From Lutibacter sp. Hel_I_33_5 (GTDB lineage Bacteria > Bacteroidota > Bacteroidia > Flavobacteriales > Flavobacteriaceae), in NCBI RefSeq assembly GCF_007827455.1, contig NZ_VISM01000001.1, positions 248,001-312,000 on the forward strand: DNA of 64,000 nucleotides, in the 5' to 3' direction. The position numbers and the translations under genes are program-made. Position 1 is the stretch's first letter, and each line of letters begins with the position of its first letter. Shown here one piece after another: positions 18,002 to 29,902 of this stretch. The notes beneath the pieces are model-generated. The model was not told the DNA's origin. It did not search any database and saw only the letters and a list, made by a program, of their open reading frames with translations.

Positions 18002-21000
18002 TTAATTTTTAATAACTTTTTTAATAGCTACCTCCCCTTTTTCAGTTGTTATTTTCATTAAATAAATTCCATTCGAAATTGAATGAATATTAATGTTTTT
18101 TGTCGTGAATTTTTTAACAATTTGACCTTGTAAATTGAACAAATCAATAGCCTTAATTTGCCCTTTTAATTCTACAGTTAACTTTCCATTTGTAGGATTT
18201 GGAAACATCTTAAAGTCAAAATTATTATGATCGTTTATACTAGCTGTACTGCTAAAGATTGCAGTAATATTTTTACTAGCATCCATAGTAATACTTAAAG
18301 GGTTTATTGTCCCAGTTGCATCCCCAGACCATCCAACAAATTGATATCCTGTATTTGGAGTTGCTGTTAATCCTACTACAGTTCCATCATCATATGTTCC
18401 ATTTGTTGGATTTGGGTTTGTTGTTACAGTACCATTAGTTGCAGTAATAGTTAATGTTCGTTGAATTTTACTAAACATTGCTGTAACAGACTTATCTGCA
18501 TCCATTGTAATATTTAAAGAATTTGTTGTTCCTGTTGCATCACCAGACCAACCATCAAATTGGTATCCTGCATTAGGAGTTGCTGTTATTCCTACTACAG
18601 TTCCATCATCATACGTTCCGTTTGTTGGATTTGGGTTTGTTGTTATAGTACCATTAGTTGCAGTAATAGTTAATGTTCGTTGAATTTTACTAAACATTGC
18701 TGTAACAGACTTATCTGCATCCATTGTAATATTTAAAGGATTTGTTGTTCCTGTTGCATCACCAGACCAACCATCAAATTGATATCCTGCATTAGGAGTT
18801 GCTGTTATTCCTACTACAGTTCCATCATCATACGTTCCGTTTGTTGGATTTGGGTTTGTTGTTACAGTACCATTAGTTGCAGTAATAGTTAATGTTCGTT
18901 GAATTTTACTAAACATTGCTGTAACAGACTTATCTGAATCCATTGTAATATTTAAAGGATTTGTTGTTCCTGTTGCATCACCAGACCAACCATCAAATTG
19001 GTATCCTGTATTAGGAGTTGCTGTTATTCCTACTACAGTTCCATCATCATACGTTCCGTTTGTTGGATTTGGGTTTGTTGTTACAGTACCATTAGTTGCA
19101 GTAATAGTTAATGTTCGTTGAATTTTACTAAACATTGCTGTAACAGACTTATCTGAATCCATTGTAATATTTAAAGGATTTGTTGTTCCTGTTGCATCAC
19201 CAGACCAACTATCAAATTGGTATCCTGCATTAGGAGTTGCTGTTATTCCTACTACAGTTCCATCATCATACGTTCCGTTTGTAGGATTTGGGTTTGTAGT
19301 TACTGTTCCGTTTGTAGCATTAATTGTTAAGGTACGTTGAATTTTACTAAACATTGCCGTAACAGACTTATCTGCATCCATTGTAATACTTAATGGATTT
19401 GTTGTATTTGTATTTCCAGTACCAGCAAAATCTCCCGTCCAATGAGAAAACTCATAATTAGAATCAGGATCTGGTGTTAACGTAACTACAGTTCCATCAT
19501 CATAAGTACCACTATTATTTGTTGTTGTATTAGGGTTTGGGCTCACCGTAATATTACCATTTGTTGCATTAATTATTAATGTACGTTGTGTAACAGGTAT
19601 TAAACTGAATATTGCAGTAACCGTTTTATCCGTATCTATTGTGATATTTTGAGGATTTGTTGTTCCTGTAACATCACCAGACCATCCATCAAACTGATAT
19701 CCAGTATTTGGTGTTGCTGTTAAAGTTACCACAGTTCCGTTTAAATAAGTACCGTTTGTTGGATATGAATTTGGAGTTACTGTTCCGTTTGTAGCATTAA
19801 TAGTTAATGTATGTTTTATTAAACTAAAGTTAGCTTTGTATGCTTTGTCTGCATCCATAGTAACACTTAAAGGGTTTGTTGACCCTGTTGCATCTCCAGA
19901 CCAACCATCAAATTGATATCCTGCATCTGGTGTTGCAGTTATAGCAACTACTGCACCATCTGTATAAGTACCATTCGTTGGATTTGGATTTGTTGTTACT
20001 GTACCATTACCAACTACTGATGTATTAAGAGTTCTTGTAACGACAATAGTTGCAGGATTTGATCCGAATTCATAGACTCCCATATCTACTGTAGTATTAA
20101 AAATACGTTGATTTCCTAATAAATCTGTACTAGTTGTTACATACGTATTATCTCCGCTATCTTTTGCTGGCGAACTCGTTGTTAATGAAAAATCTCCATT
20201 TAATAAATCTGTAAAAGACGGATCTGTATCACTTGTTGCAGTTGTTGATGTAATTAAAGAATCGTTAAAATTATTTTCATCTATAGAATTATACACATTA
20301 ACAGAAGTAACAGGTATTCCGTAAAGATCTGTAATAGATTTAGTTGCTACGTTACCAGTTGTTTTATTGTTCCAAAATATCGAATTTGAAACTACTGCAT
20401 TAAATGTACCAAAGAAACCAGGATGTCTACTAATTGCGAATACTGCATGAGTAGAAGCGTTTAAACTTTGTTCTGTACCTGTATCTGTATTGTTAACCAA
20501 TGTGTTATTTGTGAAATTTAAATCAACATCAGATGTGCTTCCTAACATTCTAAACCAACCTGCACTTCCACTAAATCCTAGTGCTGAAGCAGTTAAATTA
20601 GCTGCGGTATTACTGTTAAATAGTGTGTTTGAAATATTTATATCTACATTGGTATTACTTCTTATAATACTATAAATACCAGTACCCCAACGAGAGAAAT
20701 TATTGGTGAATTCACAGTTTTCTATAGTTAATACACCTCTAGTTCCTGTAGCATTATTCAACTCAAACTCTGCAATTAAACCAGCACTTGCATTTCTAGA
20801 AACATTGTTCTTAATAATACAATTTTTAAGTGTTAGTTTTGCAATTGCCTTATTCTTTACTATAGCACCTCCCTGTTCTGTTGTACTTAAACTATTATGA
20901 GCATCACTTATAGTTAAACCATCTAGTAATAAATCATTTCCTGTTGTTGTAATCTTAACAATATGAGTACTGTTTACATTTCTACGTGATGTCTCATTAT

Positions 21001-23836
21001 AATTAGCAAGATAACCCACAACGTTATTATCATCATTTCCTAAATCACCTGATAATATAGTTTCATTAGCTCCAAGAACTCTATCTGAAAGTTTTGTTTC
21101 TGTTCCTGCAAAACCTCCATAAATTTTCATACCACTCTTTGTTATATTAAAAGAAACACTTATATCTGACGCATTTGGTGTATAAGTACCAGCAGCTACC
21201 CAGATTTCAGAATTATTAACAGTATTTGATAAAGCGGTAGTTAAACTTGTATAGGCATCTGGCCAAGTTGTACCATCGTTATTTCCTGTAGCATTCTTGT
21301 TAACATATATTTTTGATTTCACAAAATTAGCCGTTATATTGATGGTGTTATTTACTAATACGCCTAAAGTATTTGTATTACCAACGATATCTCCTGTCCA
21401 ACCATTAAATTTATATCCTGCAGCTGGTGTTGCTACTAAATTTAATACAGTACCATAATCATGGTTTTGTGAGACAGGATGATTTACAGTTCCGTTTCCG
21501 GTTACTTGTACATTTACTTTATATGTAAATAATGCATACGGGTCAAACTCATATGCTCCCACATCTATAGTACTTGTAACAATTCTATCTTTACCTAATA
21601 AATCTTTTGTAAAAGTTGCTGGTAATTTTGAATTATCTCCTGTATTAATTGCAGGTGAACCTGATAGTAATATAAATTCATTATTAGCTGCATCTTTAAG
21701 TAATGGATCTGCATTACTAGTATTTGTTAAATTAGCAGCTGTTAATTTAGAAAAACTACCCTGATCTATAGAATTTACTGCTGTTACATTTTGCCCTAAA
21801 GTAGTGTGCATTCCTGATATAGCATTAGCTATTACTCCCCCTGTAATGGTATTATTCCAAAAAATACAATTGGCAGCCTCTAAATTTAAAGTTCCACTAG
21901 TAGTAGAAGCTCCGACAGTAGCTCTATTTAAGTTGTTCATATAACTATGTGTACCGATATCATTATTATTAACATAGGTGTTATTTACTAAACTAGTAGT
22001 TACATTAGCAGATCCATGTAGAGATCTAAACCAACCAGCACTAGCAGCAAATCCTACAGCGCCACTTAAATTTTTAGCTTCATTATTACTAAATAAAGAA
22101 TTGGTTACTTTAAATGTAAACACACCACCAGATCTTGCCCAAGCAGCAAAAGAAGTACTGTGGCGTGCAATGTTATTATCAAAAATACAGTTCTCGATAT
22201 CAAGAGTACCTCCAGAAGAGGTATATTCTGCATTTATACCTGCTGCATGACCAGCATAATTGTTTTTAAACGTAGAGTTTTTTACTGTCAATGAATTTAC
22301 AGTTACTCGTTTAAAAATACCTGCTCCTGTTGAATTATTAGCTGTACTATTTGCAACTCCATCTTGAATAATAAAACCATCTATAACAATATCATTTTGA
22401 TTTACATCAATAACATGATACGCGTTTTCACTTCTACTTCCTCCAATGTCATCTCCTGACAAATCACCAGATAAGATGGTTTCATTAGTTCTTAAATCTC
22501 TTTGATTTAAAGTAGTTTCTGTACCGTTAAACCCTCCATATAATTCAACATTTTTTTTGTTGATTGCAAAAGGAACAGTTCTGCTTGAAGCATGAGGTGT
22601 ATAAGTACCTTTTGCAACCCAAATTTCACCACCCTCTTGCAATGTACTTAATGCACCCTGTAAGTCTGTATATGCATTTGTCCAAGAAGTTCCGTCATTT
22701 GTTCCTGTTGCATTTTTATTAACGTATGTAATCCCGTTGGTTCTAACCTCTAATGGAGAGGACCAACTAGACATCGTTGAATTTGCACAAGGTCTTCTTA
22801 AATATACATTGTAAATAGTACCTGGTTGTAGACCAGTTAAATTTTGAACATCATTGGCTGTATAATTTATGTTTGATACTATTGTAGCATTTGCAAAAGG
22901 TTGTCCTTTAGCAACGTATGCTAAATCGAAAGTACCCGATTCTGACCAAGAAACATCTGCTGTGGTTTCAGTAATATTAGCTGTTGAAATAATAGATGTT
23001 AACGGTGGAAAACAAAAATTATTTATAGTAGCTAATTGTGTAACTTCTGCTTGTGTTACTCTTTTAGTATAAATATTTAAATCATCTATAGCACCATGAA
23101 ACCTATTTGAGTCGCTCAAATTATTAGTTCTGTTGTTTCCGACTGTAAAGTTTCCGTTCGTGTCATGAGATCCAAGTAATCTAAAACTAACTGAAGATGA
23201 ACCACTTTCATCTATTCCTACTTCGCCTTGATCTAAACCATCAATGAACACCCTTGTTCTAGTTCTAATAAAAATGGTTAATCCTGAAGAACTAACACTA
23301 TAAGTATTACCAATTGTCATTACAACATGATGCCAGTTACCATCACTAATAATAGGAGTCGTACTATTAGTTGAACCTCTGTATGAAGTATTTCCACTAT
23401 GCAATACTCTTGTACTTACTCCTATTTTACCATCTTGTAAAAAAACATAATACCCTGTCCAAGTAGTACTAGTTAAACTTGAGTTATTATTAGAATCGTC
23501 AATAATAATTCTTTTATTAGTATCATTTGTAGTTGTTTTGATCCAAAAACTAACTGTACCTTCATTTCCGTAGTTAGCACCTAAATTATTACTAGGATAC
23601 GCTACATCTGTTCTTGTTAAATGATCTCCATTTAAACTAATTGCATTATTTGCTACTGTAAAGCGGTCATCTATATTTGCTAATGCTGTTCCTGTTTGTG
23701 TAAATGTTACTGCATTGGCTGCGTCTGTAAAAACTCCATTGGTGAAGTCGTAATTAGCATATAAACCATTAGTGGGTATTTGTGCGTAGGTTATGCTAGC
23801 TACAAAAAGTAATAAGAAAAATAATTTTGATTTCAT
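18002..23836 (-). CDS. Giant T9SS-secreted repeat protein (LamG, FN3-like, beta-helix, InlB-type repeats)
   Basis: A 1944-residue secreted protein. The signal peptide MKSKLFFLLLFVASITYAQ begins at 23836; an ATG eight codons upstream is less likely. In order: a concanavalin/LamG-like domain (about 20-265), a fibronectin-III-like segment (about 275-365), a right-handed beta-helix (about 370-740, opening YVNKNATGTNDG), one InlB-B-like repeat, a second beta-helix (about 800-1220, opening YVNKNATGNNDG), then eight InlB-B-like repeats, five almost identical at 219 bp each. It ends in a T9SS type A sorting domain (FKMFPNPTNGKLTVEL, ISNGIYLMKI). The architecture suggests a surface adhesin or glycan-binding protein. 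An upstream direct repeat matches those before the nearby secreted-protein and LytTR genes. Confidence 0.9.
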   Translation of the reverse strand: MKSKLFFLLLFVASITYAQIPTNGLYANYDFTNGVFTDAANAVTFTQTGTALANIDDRFTVANNAISLNGDHLTRTDVAYPSNNLGANYGNEGTVSFWIKTTTNDTNKRIIIDDSNNNSSLTSTTWTGYYVFLQDGKIGVSTRVLHSGNTSYRGSTNSTTPIISDGNWHHVVMTIGNTYSVSSSGLTIFIRTRTRVFIDGLDQGEVGIDESGSSSVSFRLLGSHDTNGNFTVGNNRTNNLSDSNRFHGAIDDLNIYTKRVTQAEVTQLATINNFCFPPLTSIISTANITETTADVSWSESGTFDLAYVAKGQPFANATIVSNINYTANDVQNLTGLQPGTIYNVYLRRPCANSTMSSWSSPLEVRTNGITYVNKNATGTNDGTSWTNAYTDLQGALSTLQEGGEIWVAKGTYTPHASSRTVPFAINKKNVELYGGFNGTETTLNQRDLRTNETILSGDLSGDDIGGSRSENAYHVIDVNQNDIVIDGFIIQDGVANSTANNSTGAGIFKRVTVNSLTVKNSTFKNNYAGHAAGINAEYTSSGGTLDIENCIFDNNIARHSTSFAAWARSGGVFTFKVTNSLFSNNEAKNLSGAVGFAASAGWFRSLHGSANVTTSLVNNTYVNNNDIGTHSYMNNLNRATVGASTTSGTLNLEAANCIFWNNTITGGVIANAISGMHTTLGQNVTAVNSIDQGSFSKLTAANLTNTSNADPLLKDAANNEFILLSGSPAINTGDNSKLPATFTKDLLGKDRIVTSTIDVGAYEFDPYALFTYKVNVQVTGNGTVNHPVSQNHDYGTVLNLVATPAAGYKFNGWTGDIVGNTNTLGVLVNNTINITANFVKSKIYVNKNATGNNDGTTWPDAYTSLTTALSNTVNNSEIWVAAGTYTPNASDISVSFNITKSGMKIYGGFAGTETKLSDRVLGANETILSGDLGNDDNNVVGYLANYNETSRRNVNSTHIVKITTTGNDLLLDGLTISDAHNSLSTTEQGGAIVKNKAIAKLTLKNCIIKNNVSRNASAGLIAEFELNNATGTRGVLTIENCEFTNNFSRWGTGIYSIIRSNTNVDINISNTLFNSNTAANLTASALGFSGSAGWFRMLGSTSDVDLNFTNNTLVNNTDTGTEQSLNASTHAVFAISRHPGFFGTFNAVVSNSIFWNNKTTGNVATKSITDLYGIPVTSVNVYNSIDENNFNDSLITSTTATSDTDPSFTDLLNGDFSLTTSSPAKDSGDNTYVTTSTDLLGNQRIFNTTVDMGVYEFGSNPATIVVTRTLNTSVVGNGTVTTNPNPTNGTYTDGAVVAITATPDAGYQFDGWSGDATGSTNPLSVTMDADKAYKANFSLIKHTLTINATNGTVTPNSYPTNGTYLNGTVVTLTATPNTGYQFDGWSGDVTGTTNPQNITIDTDKTVTAIFSLIPVTQRTLIINATNGNITVSPNPNTTTNNSGTYDDGTVVTLTPDPDSNYEFSHWTGDFAGTGNTNTTNPLSITMDADKSVTAMFSKIQRTLTINATNGTVTTNPNPTNGTYDDGTVVGITATPNAGYQFDSWSGDATGTTNPLNITMDSDKSVTAMFSKIQRTLTITATNGTVTTNPNPTNGTYDDGTVVGITATPNTGYQFDGWSGDATGTTNPLNITMDSDKSVTAMFSKIQRTLTITATNGTVTTNPNPTNGTYDDGTVVGITATPNAGYQFDGWSGDATGTTNPLNITMDADKSVTAMFSKIQRTLTITATNGTITTNPNPTNGTYDDGTVVGITATPNAGYQFDGWSGDATGTTNSLNITMDADKSVTAMFSKIQRTLTITATNGTVTTNPNPTNGTYDDGTVVGLTATPNTGYQFVGWSGDATGTINPLSITMDASKNITAIFSSTASINDHNNFDFKMFPNPTNGKLTVELKGQIKAIDLFNLQGQIVKKFTTKNINIHSISNGIYLMKITTEKGEVAIKKVIKN
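18242..20035 (-). repeat. Tandem InlB-type repeats (five near-identical 219-bp units)
   Basis: Between 18242 and 19336 five 73-residue units follow each other with a period of exactly 219 bp; landmark ACCATTAGTT recurs at 18431, 18650, 18869 and 19088. Three more divergent units extend the array to 20035. Near-identity at the DNA level indicates recent expansion by recombination or slippage. Confidence 0.9.
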
Positions 23837-23857: not shown

Positions 23858-23924
23858 CAAAAAAACGGCGAGATTTTATATTGTAAACAATTCACTTTAT
23901 GAATAGTGATTTTAGTTTGTGAAT
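23858..23924 (-). promoter_or_regulatory. Direct-repeat operator and promoter of the giant adhesin gene (site A)
   Basis: In gene orientation: ATTCACAAA (23916-23924), 11 nt, ATTCATAAA (23896-23904), 30 nt, then TTTTTTTG (23858-23865), which matches the -7 consensus TAnnTTTG at all but one position. The same arrangement occurs at 25518-25584 and 29295-29360. Confidence 0.65.
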
Positions 23925-23941
23925 GAAAATTTTAAACAAAA

Positions 23942-23972
23942 AAAAACTCAGTTATGAAAACTGAGTTTATTG
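23942..23972 (-). terminator. Rho-independent terminator after the 152-residue secreted protein gene
   Basis: On the minus strand AAACTCAGTT and AACTGAGTTT form a 10-bp stem with a short loop, followed by a long T run. It lies about 25 nt past the stop codon at 23996. Confidence 0.85.
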
Positions 23973-23995
23973 TATTTATTAATTTATAGTATATC

Positions 23996-24454
23996 TTATT
24001 CAGAAATCTTTATAATAAATTCTTTGATTTTTTGCTTTGTCATAGCATTAGCTTTAATTTTACTTTTACTATAAAAATTACTGAATGAAAAATCTGTCCA
24101 ATCTGGCGATTTTTTATTTGCTGGCATTATCATTACAAAGCTTTCTTTGTCGTAAGTAATCATATATAATCCAATAGCATTAAAGAAAACGGGGAACCCT
24201 AAAGCTTGGCTATCTTCTTTTTGATATTTATACATTGCAGGAGAGCATCGTTGACAAGCTGCAACAACCAATACTTTGTCATTTCCCCATTTAGTAAATT
24301 GAAATAGTTTTTCTTTGGTCATCTTTCTTCCTATTCCTCTCTCTGCATCCATTAAAAGATAAGTTCCATCAATAGTTTTAGTAGGCTCTTTACTTTGAGA
24401 AAAAAGCATACAAGGCATTAGTATTAAAATTAAGAGTGTTAAAAGTGTTTTCAT
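23996..24454 (-). CDS. Secreted protein of unknown function (152 aa)
   Basis: The signal peptide MKTLLTLLILILMPCMLFSQ is followed by about 130 residues with one CxxC motif (ACQRCSP) and aromatic-rich strands (FPVFFNAIGLYMITYDKESF). I recognise no family. It starts 55 nt after the stop of the 326-residue secreted protein and is followed by a strong terminator, so the two probably form a bicistronic unit under the direct-repeat promoter at 25518-25584. The CxxC might bind metal or form a disulfide. Confidence 0.7.
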   Translation of the reverse strand: MKTLLTLLILILMPCMLFSQSKEPTKTIDGTYLLMDAERGIGRKMTKEKLFQFTKWGNDKVLVVAACQRCSPAMYKYQKEDSQALGFPVFFNAIGLYMITYDKESFVMIMPANKKSPDWTDFSFSNFYSKSKIKANAMTKQKIKEFIIKISE

Positions 24455-24509
24455 AATTAGTTAAATTTAGTTTAGTAGTATTTTTACGTTTTACACAACT
24501 CTCTATATA

Positions 24510-25490
24510 TTAGTTTATATTTATAGTTTTACCACAACCTGTATTCTTACCATAAACCTTCCTTCCCTCTACAATATATGCATCACTATCGCAATTCCAA
24601 GCTCTTGTTCCTCCTGCTACTACCTCCGTACCTAAGCTACAACCAGTACTAGAGTGACATATATAAATAGATTGACTGCTGTTATTTCTAAGTGTTACAT
24701 TATCTCTTTTTTTCACATCCTCTACAAATTTTTGATAAGCTTTCATCCTTTTATACTTTGGCGTTGCTTTAATAGAGTCATTATACCTTTTTATTTCATC
24801 AGCACCTTTATTTTTTGCTGCAATGATATTTTTATCATGCTGTTTTTCTTTTATTGTTCTATTTTTCTGCTTAGCCTTCATTGCTACTAAATAATCTTTA
24901 ATTAACTTATCTAGATTTTTATTTTGTAAGGCTTTGTGAGCTTCTCCGTAATTAGGATTCTTTTTAGATTTGTTTTTTGCTTCTTTTAGTTTTTGAAAGA
25001 AAGACATCTTTTTCTTTTTAGTTTTTTTCTTATTTCCAGTAGCTTTTTCTCCTTTTATTTTAATATAAACATCATCTATATTTTTAAAAGACGTTCCGTC
25101 AGTAGAAATACCTCTTACAACAAATACATAGTCCTCGATAGCTATAATTCCGTCCTTTTGATATTTATGTTTCATATAGCTTTCATAAGGATATCCGCTA
25201 CATTCATAGTAACCTTCTATCACATTATATCCTCCTCCTTTTTCACCTTTTTTCTTTCCTTCATCTATAATAGCACTTATTTCATAACCTTCACCTGAAG
25301 AAAGACGTTTTAAATCAAACTTAACTACATATCGTTTGTCGTTAATTTCATAAGTACCATCACCTTCAGCATCCCAGACTCTTGTATACTCTTGGTATTG
25401 ATCATTCATTGAAATATTATCAAATAAGTTGTTTTGTGCAAATGATATTGTTGTTATCAAAAGTGCAATTGCTGTAATTAAATTTCTCAT
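24510..25490 (-). CDS. Secreted protein of unknown function (326 aa)
   Basis: The signal peptide MRNLITAIALLITTISFAQ is followed by a beta-rich domain (about 25-150), a very Lys-rich central region (about 150-265, probably helical/coiled), and a small Cys-containing C-terminal domain (YICHSSTGCSLG, RAWNCDSDAYIVEG, NTGCGKTININ) with four cysteines that could form two disulfides. No family recognised. It is preceded by the direct-repeat promoter also seen before the adhesin and the LytTR gene, so it is probably a target of that two-component system. Confidence 0.72.
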   Translation of the reverse strand: MRNLITAIALLITTISFAQNNLFDNISMNDQYQEYTRVWDAEGDGTYEINDKRYVVKFDLKRLSSGEGYEISAIIDEGKKKGEKGGGYNVIEGYYECSGYPYESYMKHKYQKDGIIAIEDYVFVVRGISTDGTSFKNIDDVYIKIKGEKATGNKKKTKKKKMSFFQKLKEAKNKSKKNPNYGEAHKALQNKNLDKLIKDYLVAMKAKQKNRTIKEKQHDKNIIAAKNKGADEIKRYNDSIKATPKYKRMKAYQKFVEDVKKRDNVTLRNNSSQSIYICHSSTGCSLGTEVVAGGTRAWNCDSDAYIVEGRKVYGKNTGCGKTININ

Positions 25491-25517
25491 TGTTTTTTAT
25501 ATTAAATATTTTGAATA

Positions 25518-25584
25518 CAAGATTACAATCAGAATAAAAAAAAAGAACAAAACGTTTTATGAATGGTAGTTTTGGTTTGTGAAT
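25518..25584 (-). promoter_or_regulatory. Direct-repeat operator and promoter of the secreted-protein pair (site B)
   Basis: In gene orientation: ATTCACAAA (25576-25584), 11 nt, ATTCATAAA (25556-25564), 30 nt, then TAATCTTG (25518-25525), one mismatch from the -7 consensus. The half-sites are identical to those of site A. Confidence 0.7.
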
Positions 25585-25617
25585 GAAATAATGGGGCTCT
25601 TAAAGCTAAGAAATGTT

Positions 25618-28527
25618 TTAAATAAATGGTAAGTTTACAATAACTTTTGTTCCTTTTGCTACTTCACCTTCATATAAATCTTCTATTGTATAACCAATTT
25701 CTTGAGCGTATTGTTTTCTGAAGATATCTAAACGTTTTTCTATAGCTCCTAAAGCAAAAGATTCATGATGATGACCTTGACGACTTGTTATTTCTTTTGC
25801 TTTCTCTCTACCAACACCATTATCTGTAATGATACATTGTAAGCTGTTATTCGAAAAAACAAATTCAATATCAAGTTCTTTTTTTCCTGATTTATGTAAT
25901 AAACCATGAACTAAAGCATTTTCAATAAAAGGTTGAATTAATAATGATGGTATTTCTAAATTTTCTTCTGAGTTATAAGAAATCGTATATATAAAATCTT
26001 CACCAAAACGTAAGTTTTCTAACTTTAAATACACTTTTAAAAAATTTAGTTCTTCTTGTATAGAAATAAAATCTTGATTAGAATAGCTTAATGCATTACG
26101 TATCAAAACCGAAAATAAAACAATAGAATCATACGTTGCATCTGTATCATGTTTTAAAACTAAATCTTGTATAGAATTTAAGGCATTAAATATAAAATGA
26201 GGGTTCATTTGAGAACGCAAAGCCGTTAAATTTGTGGTAATCAATTCTTTTTCAAGCGATACTTTTTCTAGCTGAGCTATTCTTTCTTTTTCTTTTCCTT
26301 TTATTTTTCTTCTAAAATAATAATTCATACTTCCAAAAAACAATAATGAAACTCCTAAAATAAACCACCAAGTTTTCCAATATGGTCTTTGTATTGAAAA
26401 GGTAAGTTCTTTTATATTTTTAGGTGAAGAATTTTCTAAGTTTGGTTGTACCTGAAAAGTGTATTTCCCCGCAGGTAAACTATTATATTTAACCGAGTTA
26501 ATGTTCTTATCTGTAAATAACCAAGTATCACTTAATCCCTTTAATCTATACTTATAATTACTTTTTTGGTTGTATAAAAAACCATTAACATTAAAACCAA
26601 TTTTTATTGCGTTTTGATTATAATTCAACCTATAATTAGAACCAACAACTGTATCTTTTTCATTAATTTCTAACTCATTAAAATATATTTCAGGATACTG
26701 TTCTTTAAATAGATTTTCTTTATTTAATGAGAATAAACCTTCATTTGAAGATAAAAACACTTTGTTATTAAGGATTTCAATTCCTGTGATATCATAAGAT
26801 AAAATACCTTCACGTTTTGTTAGTGTTTTAATTTTTTTTGAAACAACATCAAGTAATTGAAAACTATTTTCTGAAGAAATCCAGAGATTATTTTGATCTC
26901 CTTTTATAATACCTGTATTATTTGAAGTTAGTCCGTTACTCGTATTATAATGATGTATAACAGAATCATTTTTAATACCATAAATACCATTATTAATTGA
27001 AGATACCCATATAACACCGTCTTTGGTTTTAGTTAATGATCTACCATAAATTGGCTTATTATTATATTTAATAATTTTTGATTCCCATGTATGATTATAC
27101 TTAACTAAATTATCTACAAAGGCAACGTATACTTCTTTTTTGCTTTCATCTTTTAAAGAAGCATATGTTCTCTTATTATTAGAAATGACGATTTCGTTTT
27201 TAAAACTTCCGTTTTTTAATATTTTAACCGTATTGTAACTTGTAAAAAAAACATCCTTTTTATTTAAAATTAATAAGCTTTTAGCAGTGCTAATTTTACT
27301 AACTTGTTTTATTTCTTTTAATTGAAACGTTTTATAATTATAAGTGAATGATTGTATGTCTTTACTAATATAAACTGTACTTTTTTCTGGATGATTTTTA
27401 AGTACAGAAACTCTATCTTTAGTAGGTATATCTATAAAATGTTCTTTATCTTTTTGAATATTATAAAATCCAATATCACCCGCTTTACTTCCAAATACCA
27501 GCGTGTTCTTATTTATAATATCTAAACTACTTATATTTTTGTTTTTTTCTGAAACGGTAGCAACTTCTATAGCTATATTGGGTGCAACATAAATACCATC
27601 ATTTAGTGTTGTAAACCAATAATTATCATCTTTATCTTTTATAATCTTTGTAACACTTTTATCTTTTAAAAACCTTTTTTTAAATCTAAATCTATTCTCT
27701 TTAAATTCAAAAATCCAAACGCCAGAATTTGTCCCAAACCAAATATCATTTTCGTTTTCAAATTCTGTATGAATTCTTTCTTTAGCTATAGGTTTTGAGC
27801 CTTTTACTGGAATAATATTTTTATCTAAAGAATTAATTTTATAGAACTTATTGATACCTAGTCTATTTTGATAAAGGAAAAGAGAAGATACTATTTTAAA
27901 TATTTTTGATGGCCCTTGAGTTATTGTTTTCCCTTTATGATCTTTAGTTGGTAAATTATTTGCAGCAATTGCTTTAAAGTAATTTTTATTTGTGAGGCTA
28001 ATGATAGAATCTACATTACCAAAATATATAGTTTTATCTAGTTTTAAAGGGTTTCCGAAATTTTTATTGTTCGTATGAATATTTTCTATCAGTTTAGTTT
28101 CAATATTTATTTTATAAATATTTCTAGCAGAAAACACCCAAAGAAATTTCTTTACAACCATAAACTCAGAAAGTTCTCCTTTTAGAAGTTTACTTAAATC
28201 TGTAAATAAATGGAGTTCATTATTTTTTGTGAAGAAAAATTGCCCAGAGATGTTATTACACCAAATTCGTCCTAAATCGTCTTGTTTAACTCCAAAAACA
28301 GATCTACTTCGTTGTTTTTTATTACTAAAGCTTTTATACGATTTACCATCGTATCGGTAAAGTCCATTATCTGCAGCTAACCAAATAAAACCTTTGTCAT
28401 CTTCTATTAAATTGTAAAACTCTTTATCTGGTAAACCATTTTTTTCTGAAAGATGAATAAATACAGGTTCTTGTCCATTCATTAAAAATGAAAACATAAA
28501 GAACAATAGAAAAAAAATATTTTTCAT
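25618..28527 (-). CDS. Reg_prop beta-propeller sensor histidine kinase (LytS-type catalytic core)
   Basis: A 969-residue sensor when started at MKNIFFLLFF, 16 nt after the response-regulator stop; a longer frame from 28575 would overlap that gene. After the signal peptide come Reg_prop repeats forming a periplasmic beta-propeller (about 20-630), then a Y_Y_Y domain (about 640-715), one transmembrane helix (about 722-745) and a short coiled coil. The HisKA_5-type phosphoacceptor motif is MNPHFIFNALNSIQDLV, and the ATPase has QPFIENALVHGLLHK and ITDNGVGREKA. In Bacteroidetes such sensors often respond to glycans or other periplasmic ligands. Its cognate regulator is the LytTR gene directly upstream. 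Confidence 0.93.
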   Translation of the reverse strand: MKNIFFLLFFMFSFLMNGQEPVFIHLSEKNGLPDKEFYNLIEDDKGFIWLAADNGLYRYDGKSYKSFSNKKQRSRSVFGVKQDDLGRIWCNNISGQFFFTKNNELHLFTDLSKLLKGELSEFMVVKKFLWVFSARNIYKINIETKLIENIHTNNKNFGNPLKLDKTIYFGNVDSIISLTNKNYFKAIAANNLPTKDHKGKTITQGPSKIFKIVSSLFLYQNRLGINKFYKINSLDKNIIPVKGSKPIAKERIHTEFENENDIWFGTNSGVWIFEFKENRFRFKKRFLKDKSVTKIIKDKDDNYWFTTLNDGIYVAPNIAIEVATVSEKNKNISSLDIINKNTLVFGSKAGDIGFYNIQKDKEHFIDIPTKDRVSVLKNHPEKSTVYISKDIQSFTYNYKTFQLKEIKQVSKISTAKSLLILNKKDVFFTSYNTVKILKNGSFKNEIVISNNKRTYASLKDESKKEVYVAFVDNLVKYNHTWESKIIKYNNKPIYGRSLTKTKDGVIWVSSINNGIYGIKNDSVIHHYNTSNGLTSNNTGIIKGDQNNLWISSENSFQLLDVVSKKIKTLTKREGILSYDITGIEILNNKVFLSSNEGLFSLNKENLFKEQYPEIYFNELEINEKDTVVGSNYRLNYNQNAIKIGFNVNGFLYNQKSNYKYRLKGLSDTWLFTDKNINSVKYNSLPAGKYTFQVQPNLENSSPKNIKELTFSIQRPYWKTWWFILGVSLLFFGSMNYYFRRKIKGKEKERIAQLEKVSLEKELITTNLTALRSQMNPHFIFNALNSIQDLVLKHDTDATYDSIVLFSVLIRNALSYSNQDFISIQEELNFLKVYLKLENLRFGEDFIYTISYNSEENLEIPSLLIQPFIENALVHGLLHKSGKKELDIEFVFSNNSLQCIITDNGVGREKAKEITSRQGHHHESFALGAIEKRLDIFRKQYAQEIGYTIEDLYEGEVAKGTKVIVNLPFI

Positions 28528-28543
28528 CAATATATATAATGCT

Positions 28544-29290
28544 TTATTGCAAAAATACTTCTTCAAAATCATCAACTCTTGCTCTAGAAATTCTTGCTTT
28601 TAGTATTCCGTCAGCTAATGTAATGCTTAAGTCTGTTTTATTTAGAAATTTGATATATGAAATATTAATAATCCAAGCTCTATGAGTACGGAAGAATGAA
28701 GAATCTTTTGGTAAAACATTTTCAAAATATTTTAAGTTCTTACTTGTAGTAATAACCTTTGTATCTTTTAAATGAATTTTACTGTAAGCACCATCAGCTT
28801 CTACTGCAATGATATTGTCTAAATCAACAATTCTTCTATTTCCTATTTCTGGAAGTACAATTTTCTTGTAGTTTTTATCTTTTATTGTTGCTAATAAGTT
28901 CTGATAATCAACCAGTTTATTTTGTTTCCCTAATTTTTCTTCTAATTTAGAAATTGCGTCTGTTAATTTTTGTCTATCTATTGGTTTTACAAGGTAGTCG
29001 ATGGCATTTAATTCAAATGCTTTTATAGCATATTGATCATAAGCCGTTACAAATATAATTTCGAAGTTTATCTTTTTAAAGAACTTTACAATCTCATAGC
29101 CAGCATAATTAGGCATTTGTACATCTAAAAAAACAACTTGTGGTTTTAGTTCTTTAATCTTTTCTACTCCTTCTTCTAAATCACAACAAATAGCCACTAC
29201 CTCTATAGAAGATGTTCTTTCTAATAAATTGTTTAGAACATTTCTTGCACTTTGTTCATCATCAATAAGTATCGCTTTTATTTTGGTCAT
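28544..29290 (-). CDS. LytTR-family response regulator
   Basis: A 248-residue regulator. The receiver domain has the acidic pair Asp10-Asp11 (ILIDDEQ), phosphoacceptor Asp56 in VVFLDVQMP, Thr82 and Lys102 in DYLVKPID. The LytTR DNA-binding domain (about residues 145-248) carries IIAVEADGAYSKIHLKD and FFRTHRAWIINISYI. It is the first gene of an operon with the Reg_prop kinase. A direct repeat of the type LytTR proteins bind lies at 29332-29360. The -7 box is only 4 nt from the ATG, so the mRNA may be leaderless. Confidence 0.95.
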   Translation of the reverse strand: MTKIKAILIDDEQSARNVLNNLLERTSSIEVVAICCDLEEGVEKIKELKPQVVFLDVQMPNYAGYEIVKFFKKINFEIIFVTAYDQYAIKAFELNAIDYLVKPIDRQKLTDAISKLEEKLGKQNKLVDYQNLLATIKDKNYKKIVLPEIGNRRIVDLDNIIAVEADGAYSKIHLKDTKVITTSKNLKYFENVLPKDSSFFRTHRAWIINISYIKFLNKTDLSITLADGILKARISRARVDDFEEVFLQ

Positions 29291-29294
29291 ACTA

Positions 29295-29360
29295 CAAATA
29301 TAAAAATTTGATTATAGTACCCTTCATTTGTTTTATGAATAGTATAATTGGTTTGTAAAG
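29295..29360 (-). promoter_or_regulatory. Direct-repeat operator and promoter of the LytTR/kinase operon (site C)
   Basis: In gene orientation: CTTTACAAA (29352-29360), 11 nt, ATTCATAAA (29332-29340), 29 nt, then a perfect TATATTTG -7 box (29295-29302). One half-site is identical to sites A and B; the other is degenerate. This suggests autoregulation. Confidence 0.7.
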
Positions 29361-29430: not shown

Positions 29431-29622
29431 TTAAATAACTTTTACGTTTACAGCGTTTAATCCTTTTTTACCTTCCTGTAAGTCAAACTCAACAGAATCG
29501 CCTTCACGAACTTCGTCAATTAACCCAGAAATGTGTACAAAATGATCTTTTTCAACTCCTTCTTCAGTGATAAATCCAAATCCTTTAGATTCATTGAAAA
29601 ATTTTACGGTTCCTTTACTCAT
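29431..29622 (-). CDS. Cold-shock protein (CspA family), paralogue
   Basis: A 63-residue cold-shock domain ([25 protein letters not shown]) starting at 29622. An upstream in-frame ATG at 29670 would add 16 unrelated residues ([16 protein letters not shown]) and is unlikely, since all family members start just before GTVKFF. It differs from the product at 15309-15500 at five of 63 positions, and the trailing hairpin is duplicated too. The long AT-rich region upstream could contain a cold-responsive 5' UTR. Confidence 0.95.
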
Positions 29623-29902
29623 GGTATTGTAATTAAATTTATAATATATTAACCGCAAAGATGAAACCATTTTTTTGATTTATAAGCTTTTATCTGTTTT
29701 ATTAATTCGTTGTAACTGCCTATTTGACTTGATTTTAGCCAAATTACACCTATTTAAAGCAATCTTCTGATATATTACTGTAGTTAAAATTATACACGTA
29801 TACTAGGCTAAAATCTCAATATCTATAGTAATTCTTTACAATAATCGGAACTTGAATCCTTAAAAAACATCAATTACTATTTTTGGTTATTGATAAAAAA
29901 TG

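Follow-up and report, generated by a model that had tools for sequence, protein, structure and literature searches.

The question raised by this locus is what switches on an individual giant surface protein. In the window, the 64,000-nucleotide stretch of Lutibacter sp. Hel_I_33_5 DNA analysed here, the gene for such a protein lies beside a gene pair and a regulator/kinase operon. An earlier note on this DNA had identified a LytTR regulator, a Reg_prop kinase and a giant T9SS protein, identities that domain matches uphold. The genes concerned are:

28544..29290, minus strand: LytTR response regulator, 248 aa (Response_reg + LytTR; domain matches)
25618..28527, minus strand: sensor histidine kinase (Reg_prop propeller, Y_Y_Y, His_kinase; domain matches)
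24510..25490, minus strand: putative exported 326-aa protein (aligned with 8 homologues from relatives)
23996..24454, minus strand: putative exported 152-aa protein (aligned with 5 homologues from relatives, one only 24% identical)
18002..23836, minus strand: giant T9SS cargo protein, 1944 aa from its ATG (domain matches)

A short frame containing MSKGTVKFF, a sequence typical of cold-shock proteins, lies close upstream of the module at 29431-29670, also on the minus strand.

The regulator combines a receiver (PF00072, 1.7e-23) with a LytTR domain (PF04397, 4.8e-16). Its D56, T82 and K102 are invariant across 12 aligned regulators, as is H783 of the kinase across 10 aligned kinases (D56 and H783 are numbered by the translated frames), giving a conserved phospho-acceptor Asp and a partner kinase His. 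The kinase likely starts at the ATG at 28527, though the open frame runs to 28575. Kinase and DNA-binding domain sit on separate proteins, which sets the pair apart from a hybrid two-component system (HTCS). A search of the genome gave 20 LytTR matches, one of which is probably counted twice, at the contig ends, and any of these LytTR proteins might bind the window sites described below. The contig ends (G000:C1:1-10430 and ~3090994-3101400, our loci L294 and L292) repeat one another over 10,435 bases (99.7% identity, small gaps), in what looks like an untrimmed circular overlap; because of it, one LytTR/kinase pair is counted twice.

Turning to the outputs, the giant protein carries LamG, fn3 and choice-of-anchor Q domains, 9 InlB-like repeats and a type A sorting tail, and its matches to PF18962 and TIGR04183 identify a T9SS C-terminal sorting domain. 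It differs from SprB-like proteins, defined by a CHU_C type B tail and an adjacent PorP/SprF, in that its tail is of type A and no CHU_C match was found in the 1944 aa. The 326-aa and 152-aa proteins are presumably exported, judging from their signal-peptide-like starts. Neither matched a Pfam or NCBIfam family at E<=0.001. AlphaFold models of the two (pLDDT 79 from 9 sequences and 82 from 6 sequences, respectively) gave no match at E<=0.001 in fold searches against the PDB, the weak best matches being lipocalin-like (best E 0.065 and 0.058), and a sequence profile of the 326-aa family gave no match to solved structures at E<=0.1.

Each of these transcription units is preceded by a copy of a 9-N11-9 direct repeat, which we describe by the class-A pattern ATTCAYAAA-N11-ATTCATAAA, and by a -7 box:

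23896..23924, minus strand: class-A direct repeat before the giant T9SS protein gene (ATTCACAAACTAAAATCACTATTCATAAA, 0 mismatches)
25556..25584, minus strand: class-A direct repeat before the 326-aa/152-aa gene pair (ATTCACAAACCAAAACTACCATTCATAAA, 0 mismatches)
29332..29360, minus strand: class-A LytTR direct repeat before the regulator/kinase operon (CTTTACAAACCAATTATACTATTCATAAA, 2 mismatches)
23858..23865, minus strand: -7-like box of the giant-protein gene (TTTTTTTG, 30 nt after the repeat)
25518..25525, minus strand: -7 box of the 326-aa/152-aa pair (TAATCTTG, 30 nt after the repeat)
29295..29302, minus strand: -7 box of the regulator operon (TATATTTG, 29 nt after the repeat)

The repeats end 59 nt before the giant-protein ATG at 23836, 65 nt before the ATG of the 326-aa gene and 41 nt before that of the regulator. 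The earlier note had reported three copies in one orientation, 29 or 30 nt from a -7 box; all three were found where it placed them, on the minus strand with 0, 0 and 2 mismatches, and the spacing measured 30, 30 and 29 nt. It had also seen in them the geometry of a LytTR site pair, in agreement with the sites published in the available text of two reports (PMC4847170, PMC6193735). At all three window promoters, 9-N11-9 repeats stand upstream of the promoter, as in the operators described in the accessible part of PMC4847170.

How unusual is this pattern? Allowing up to 3 mismatches, the 64-kb window holds 4 matches against 2.08 expected, which is not exceptional. Across the whole genome (3.10 Mb, single contig), the perfect pattern occurs twice, both times as a window copy; no match has 1 mismatch and 12 have 2. 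The earlier note had asked whether the motif is frequent before unrelated genes, and the perfect motif is absent elsewhere in the genome. At up to 2 mismatches, there are 14 genomic matches compared to 12 for a reversed control, so the third copy (29332..29360) is not exceptional by the class-A pattern alone. With a longer consensus, the window copies score 0, 0 and 1 mismatch and the next genomic matches have 3 (n=6), while the reversed control gives 7 matches in the genome at up to 3 mismatches; this consensus was built from class-A sites including the three window copies and hence is partly circular. Independent evidence for the third copy comes from orthologues, where the site keeps its position.

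Of 146 genus genomes, 10 encode a regulator with at least 62% identity to that of the window; the next best regulator reaches 47%. We compared the loci of all ten, together with L083 from the Flavobacteriaceae MAG DT_35 (regulator 64% identical), and scanned upstream regions for the best 29-mer using a PWM for which the half-sites of the three window copies were the only training set. The window aside, nine intact orthologues were examined (L065, L083, L281, L283, L284 and L301-L304, from 8 genus genomes and the MAG DT_35), and in all nine the best 29-mer lies 42-43 nt before the regulator start. Seven of the nine operon sites score at least 12, a threshold of our choosing; the near relatives L302 and L303 reach 8.1, less than the highest control score (11.4), and the evidence there is position. 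As in LRS-type systems, then, a direct repeat is found at the regulator's own operon promoter, both at 29332-29360 and in these nine orthologues. Two loci were left out of the nine: L282, where the regulator is broken and the site lies 187 nt before the remaining frame, and L285, whose regulator (33% identical) is not class A. The broken regulator (L282:16906-17514, genome G102) is interrupted by stop codons, with sites and target genes still present. A class-A target in G004 (L285) that seemed unlinked was dropped as a candidate, the gene order of L282 suggesting one locus split between contigs.

The same PWM picks out further genes at these loci. Over the 11 loci, a score of 12 is reached by 24 of the 131 remaining genes, and in 18 of these the distance from site to start is 50-71 nt; the antisense control gives 3 of 131, and control promoters from 14 loci without a class-A regulator, including the genome's own second module, give 0 of 189. 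The genes preceded by a site in relatives include homologues of the 326-aa protein, lipoprotein-like small genes, other T9SS proteins and homologues of the giant protein itself (73% identical in L282, 64% in L285). The motif is therefore present before orthologous regulator and target genes in relatives, which is where the earlier note had proposed to look for it. The class-A target of L284 is a CHU_C protein of 2180 aa with PorP/SprF next downstream; that of L281, up to 2280 aa long, is again followed by PorP/SprF and gave no Pfam match in the 2243 aa scanned. Two class-A modules (L284:11174-18627 and L281:11539-19252) thus place a giant protein of ~2200 aa next to a PorP/SprF gene, a pairing known from SprB.

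At the level of whole genomes, the perfect motif occurs in 6 of 146, 5 of which are among the 10 with a class-A regulator (Fisher 2.8e-6); the sixth, in G008, is by eye a low-complexity match. At up to 1 mismatch the association is weak, with matches in 6 of 10 genomes with the regulator versus 32 of 136 without (Fisher 0.02), and 4 of the 10 have no match at this level.

The design is not confined to class A. Elsewhere in the genus and in further Flavobacteriaceae, kinase and regulator homologues again adjoin large T9SS proteins, and both the operon and the T9SS gene next to it are preceded by paired repeats, first seen by eye, with a period of 20-21 and varied spelling. We measured this with a sharing score S, blind to spelling and position, within 150 nt of start codons in 144 non-redundant modules, detecting T9SS tails with a profile built from the window protein. 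Operon and T9SS-target promoters share a repeat at S>=32 in 27 of 125 pairs versus 0.1 expected from dinucleotide shuffles; for genes lacking a detected tail the figure is 25 of 1027. In 23 of the 27 and 21 of the 25, respectively, the distance from shared site to start codon is 55-74 nt, although position was not used in scoring. Operon promoters paired with the targets of wrong modules reach S>=32 in 6.8% of 2006 pairs, compared to 21.6% of cognate pairs, and these wrong-pair matches arise because many modules share a spelling class.

When position is required and S is at least 30, 58 of the 144 Reg_prop-kinase/LytTR modules (128 testable) pass versus 4.25 in shuffles, and 29 versus 0 also have a -7 box near the expected offset in both promoters. 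No shared repeat emerges from this test in the remaining 86, which include the 16 outside the testable set. Named genomes with a passing module include Kordia, Flavobacterium amniphilum, Winogradskyella, Nonlabens and Pustulibacterium. Five of the 58 (L119, L291, L300, L322 and L324) look like AT-rich chance pairs; L119, the only named locus outside Flavobacteriaceae to pass, is among them. L108 (Flavobacteriales) has S=32 with a T9SS gene, yet is not among the 58. The best target carries a detected T9SS tail in 27 of the 58 passing modules, and a T9SS C-terminal sorting domain was found in 24 of 39 selected module targets. The 39 came from 50 listed, minus 11 (two kinases, small proteins, near duplicates and others); for two modules the larger T9SS gene was taken instead. 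A few of the 39 look like false targets, e.g., one Hsp70 match and one S41 peptidase match. Some loci also contain tandem kinases of 404-418 aa that resemble the C-terminal part of the Reg_prop kinase, in arrays just upstream of the LytTR gene: four in L067:10002-14902, five in L069:8785-14920 and two in L082:4111-6583. In L067 and L069 the array comes after a full-length kinase, with a repeat at the first array gene.

The repeats of these modules fall into four broad spellings: class A (ATTCAYAAA), class B (ATTCGGAAA), class C (TTTYAGAAR) and class D (TTCACTAA). Class A has a period of 20 bp in the window, and classes B, C and D mostly 21 bp; over the passing modules the period is 21 in 48 of 58 and 20 in 10. 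The window's genome itself holds a second complete module (L290:4128-10532, G000:C1 ~2462127-2468531), of class C and with a 1229-aa T9SS protein, whose repeat is spelled differently from the window's (TTTAGAAGT / TTTCAGAAA). Genus-wide scans for classes B and C at 2 mismatches were discarded as too loose, matching at least 81 and at least 138 of 146 genomes, respectively; for class C, the reversed control was by eye of similar size among the matches listed.

A rule assigned class labels to 45 of the 58 modules. When nearest neighbours were restricted to less than 75% regulator identity, class agreed with that of the neighbour in 44 of 45 cases for the LytTR domain, 41 of 45 for the receiver, 40 of 45 for the whole regulator and 35 of 39 for the kinase. 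Spelling goes with the local LytTR domain by this measure, which does not separate shared descent from recognition, since relatedness of receiver and kinase predicts class almost as well. The most informative case for spelling versus regulator is L304, where a regulator 62% identical occurs with class-A sites and a kinase only 35% identical, in a swap-like arrangement. L066 is partly the reverse: its kinase is ~48% identical to class-A kinases and its regulator only 40%, and a class-C-like site stands before the T9SS gene, with S=29, under the cut-off. In AgrA, N201 and S202, within the HRS motif of LytTR, contact DNA according to the available text of PMC4227749. All 6 class-A rows have HRA or HRG in its place, and HRS is kept in 48 of 52 other rows, the other four being unclear. 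Residue columns that track repeat class were not adopted as a recognition code, relatedness being uncontrolled.

The 58 modules supply 116 sites. For each we took the best TAnnTTTG box (up to 1 mismatch) at offsets of 10-44 after the downstream half-site; it begins at 29 or 30 nt in 69 of them, and the column frequencies of the 116 sites show no TTTG-like -33 element. In Flavobacterium psychrophilum the TAnnTTTG consensus lies at -12 to -5, as given in the accessible part of PMC9723704; taking the box at that position, the module repeats centre near -57. This is comparable with the proximal repeats of AgrA, centred near -60 (PMC4227749), and with LRS repeats, which sit just upstream of -35 (PMC6193735), both as described in the text available. 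With the repeats upstream of the core promoter, a constant 29-30 nt from the -7 box, and no -33 element in view, the arrangement suggests the geometry of an activator.

The DNA itself shows the sites, where they lie and how they are phased, that they are conserved at orthologous and module genes, and that spelling is tied to the LytTR domain. Taken together, they make it very likely that the locus encodes a self-contained LytTR two-component circuit that would activate itself, the exported pair and the surface protein, in a design that recurs in Flavobacteriaceae. In such a circuit, the propeller kinase would respond to a signal by phosphotransfer to the LytTR regulator. The regulator would then bind the paired 9-bp repeat, with the downstream half-site ending ~29-30 nt short of the -7 box and no evident -33 element, and so activate three promoters, those of its own operon (positive autoregulation), of the 326-aa/152-aa pair and of the giant T9SS-secreted protein, which may have a role in surface attachment. 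Modules of this build, each with a repeat spelling matched to its own LytTR domain, recur separately across the family. The earlier note's single LytTR-controlled surface module is thus supported as a candidate circuit, one that belongs to a wider family with differing spellings.

Could the sites be operators of this regulator that repress, closing a negative loop? The sequence does not directly tell activation from repression, but the repeats precede the core promoter, their distance to the -7 box is fixed at 29-30 nt and no -33 element is seen, and the activator sites of AgrA and LRS are placed similarly in the available text of the reports (PMC4227749, PMC6193735); we consider repression unlikely. 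That the sites instead belong to another LytTR regulator, or to some other DNA-binding protein, and lie near this one incidentally is a reading that the genome's 20 LytTR matches, of which one is probably a duplicate, would allow. However, the perfect motif co-occurs with this regulator among the 146 genomes, it stands at one position before the regulator's orthologues, and the sites remain class A in L304 despite a kinase only 35% identical, all of which makes the neighbouring regulator a far better candidate and a different one very improbable.

The repeats are also AT-rich and about two helical turns apart, as phased A/T tracts or UP-like elements of strongly expressed surface genes might be, in which case they would be part of promoter structure rather than operators. 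Yet other modules use G/C-bearing spellings, e.g., TTCGGAAA, in a comparable place, spelling is tied to the module's own LytTR domain, and dinucleotide shuffles fail to reproduce the sharing. It would be surprising indeed if promoter structure accounted for them, and we favour an activating operator of the adjacent regulator.

It also seems reasonably likely, with less assurance, that flavobacteria hold, in each genome, several paralogous, mutually insulated sensor-LytTR-surface-protein modules, every one with an operator spelling of its own that diversifies with the LytTR domain. If true, a cell could turn on individual giant surface proteins by separate external cues, and the modules would be a natural data set for reading the LytTR DNA-recognition code. 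The switching-on of individual T9SS surface proteins in Bacteroidota is little described in the literature searched, as far as its available text goes, and for many such proteins the regulator, operator and outputs are here predicted from sequence alone, which also yields dozens of differently spelled regulator/operator pairs with which LytTR specificity could be worked out.

LytTR direct repeats and LytTR autoregulation are already known from the accessible text of PMC4847170 and PMC6193735. For the coupling to T9SS and the parallel, differently spelled LytTR modules, we found no description in the open-licence literature, among the matches listed and in the text available. The operators of Escherichia coli YpdB and Staphylococcus aureus AgrA consist of two 9-11 nt repeats with an 11-13 nt spacer and no common consensus (PMC4847170, available text). 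The window sites resemble them in having two 9-nt repeats and an 11-nt spacer, and differ in the ATTCAYAAA half-site, the Bacteroidota -7 promoter, the T9SS surface outputs and the many differently spelled modules. In Streptococcus mutans and other LRS, autoregulatory direct repeats are mostly 12 bp apart, with a minority at 11 or 13, and, as here, the repeat lies just upstream of the regulator operon promoter (PMC6193735, available text). Unlike LRS, in which the regulator is paired with a membrane inhibitor protein, the regulator here has a receiver domain and an adjacent histidine kinase. In Flavobacterium psychrophilum, control of remFG-sprCDBF, which includes the SprB adhesin, has been traced to sigma-factor motifs (PMC9723704); the available main text mentions neither LytTR nor a direct repeat, and what the two cases share is regulation of T9SS surface-protein genes and the TAnnTTTG -7 consensus. 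Finally, the PorY-PorX-SigP system of Porphyromonas gingivalis links a two-component system to T9SS (PMC4800418, available text). It acts on secretion components via an ECF sigma factor, whereas the LytTR regulator described here would control cargo genes directly.
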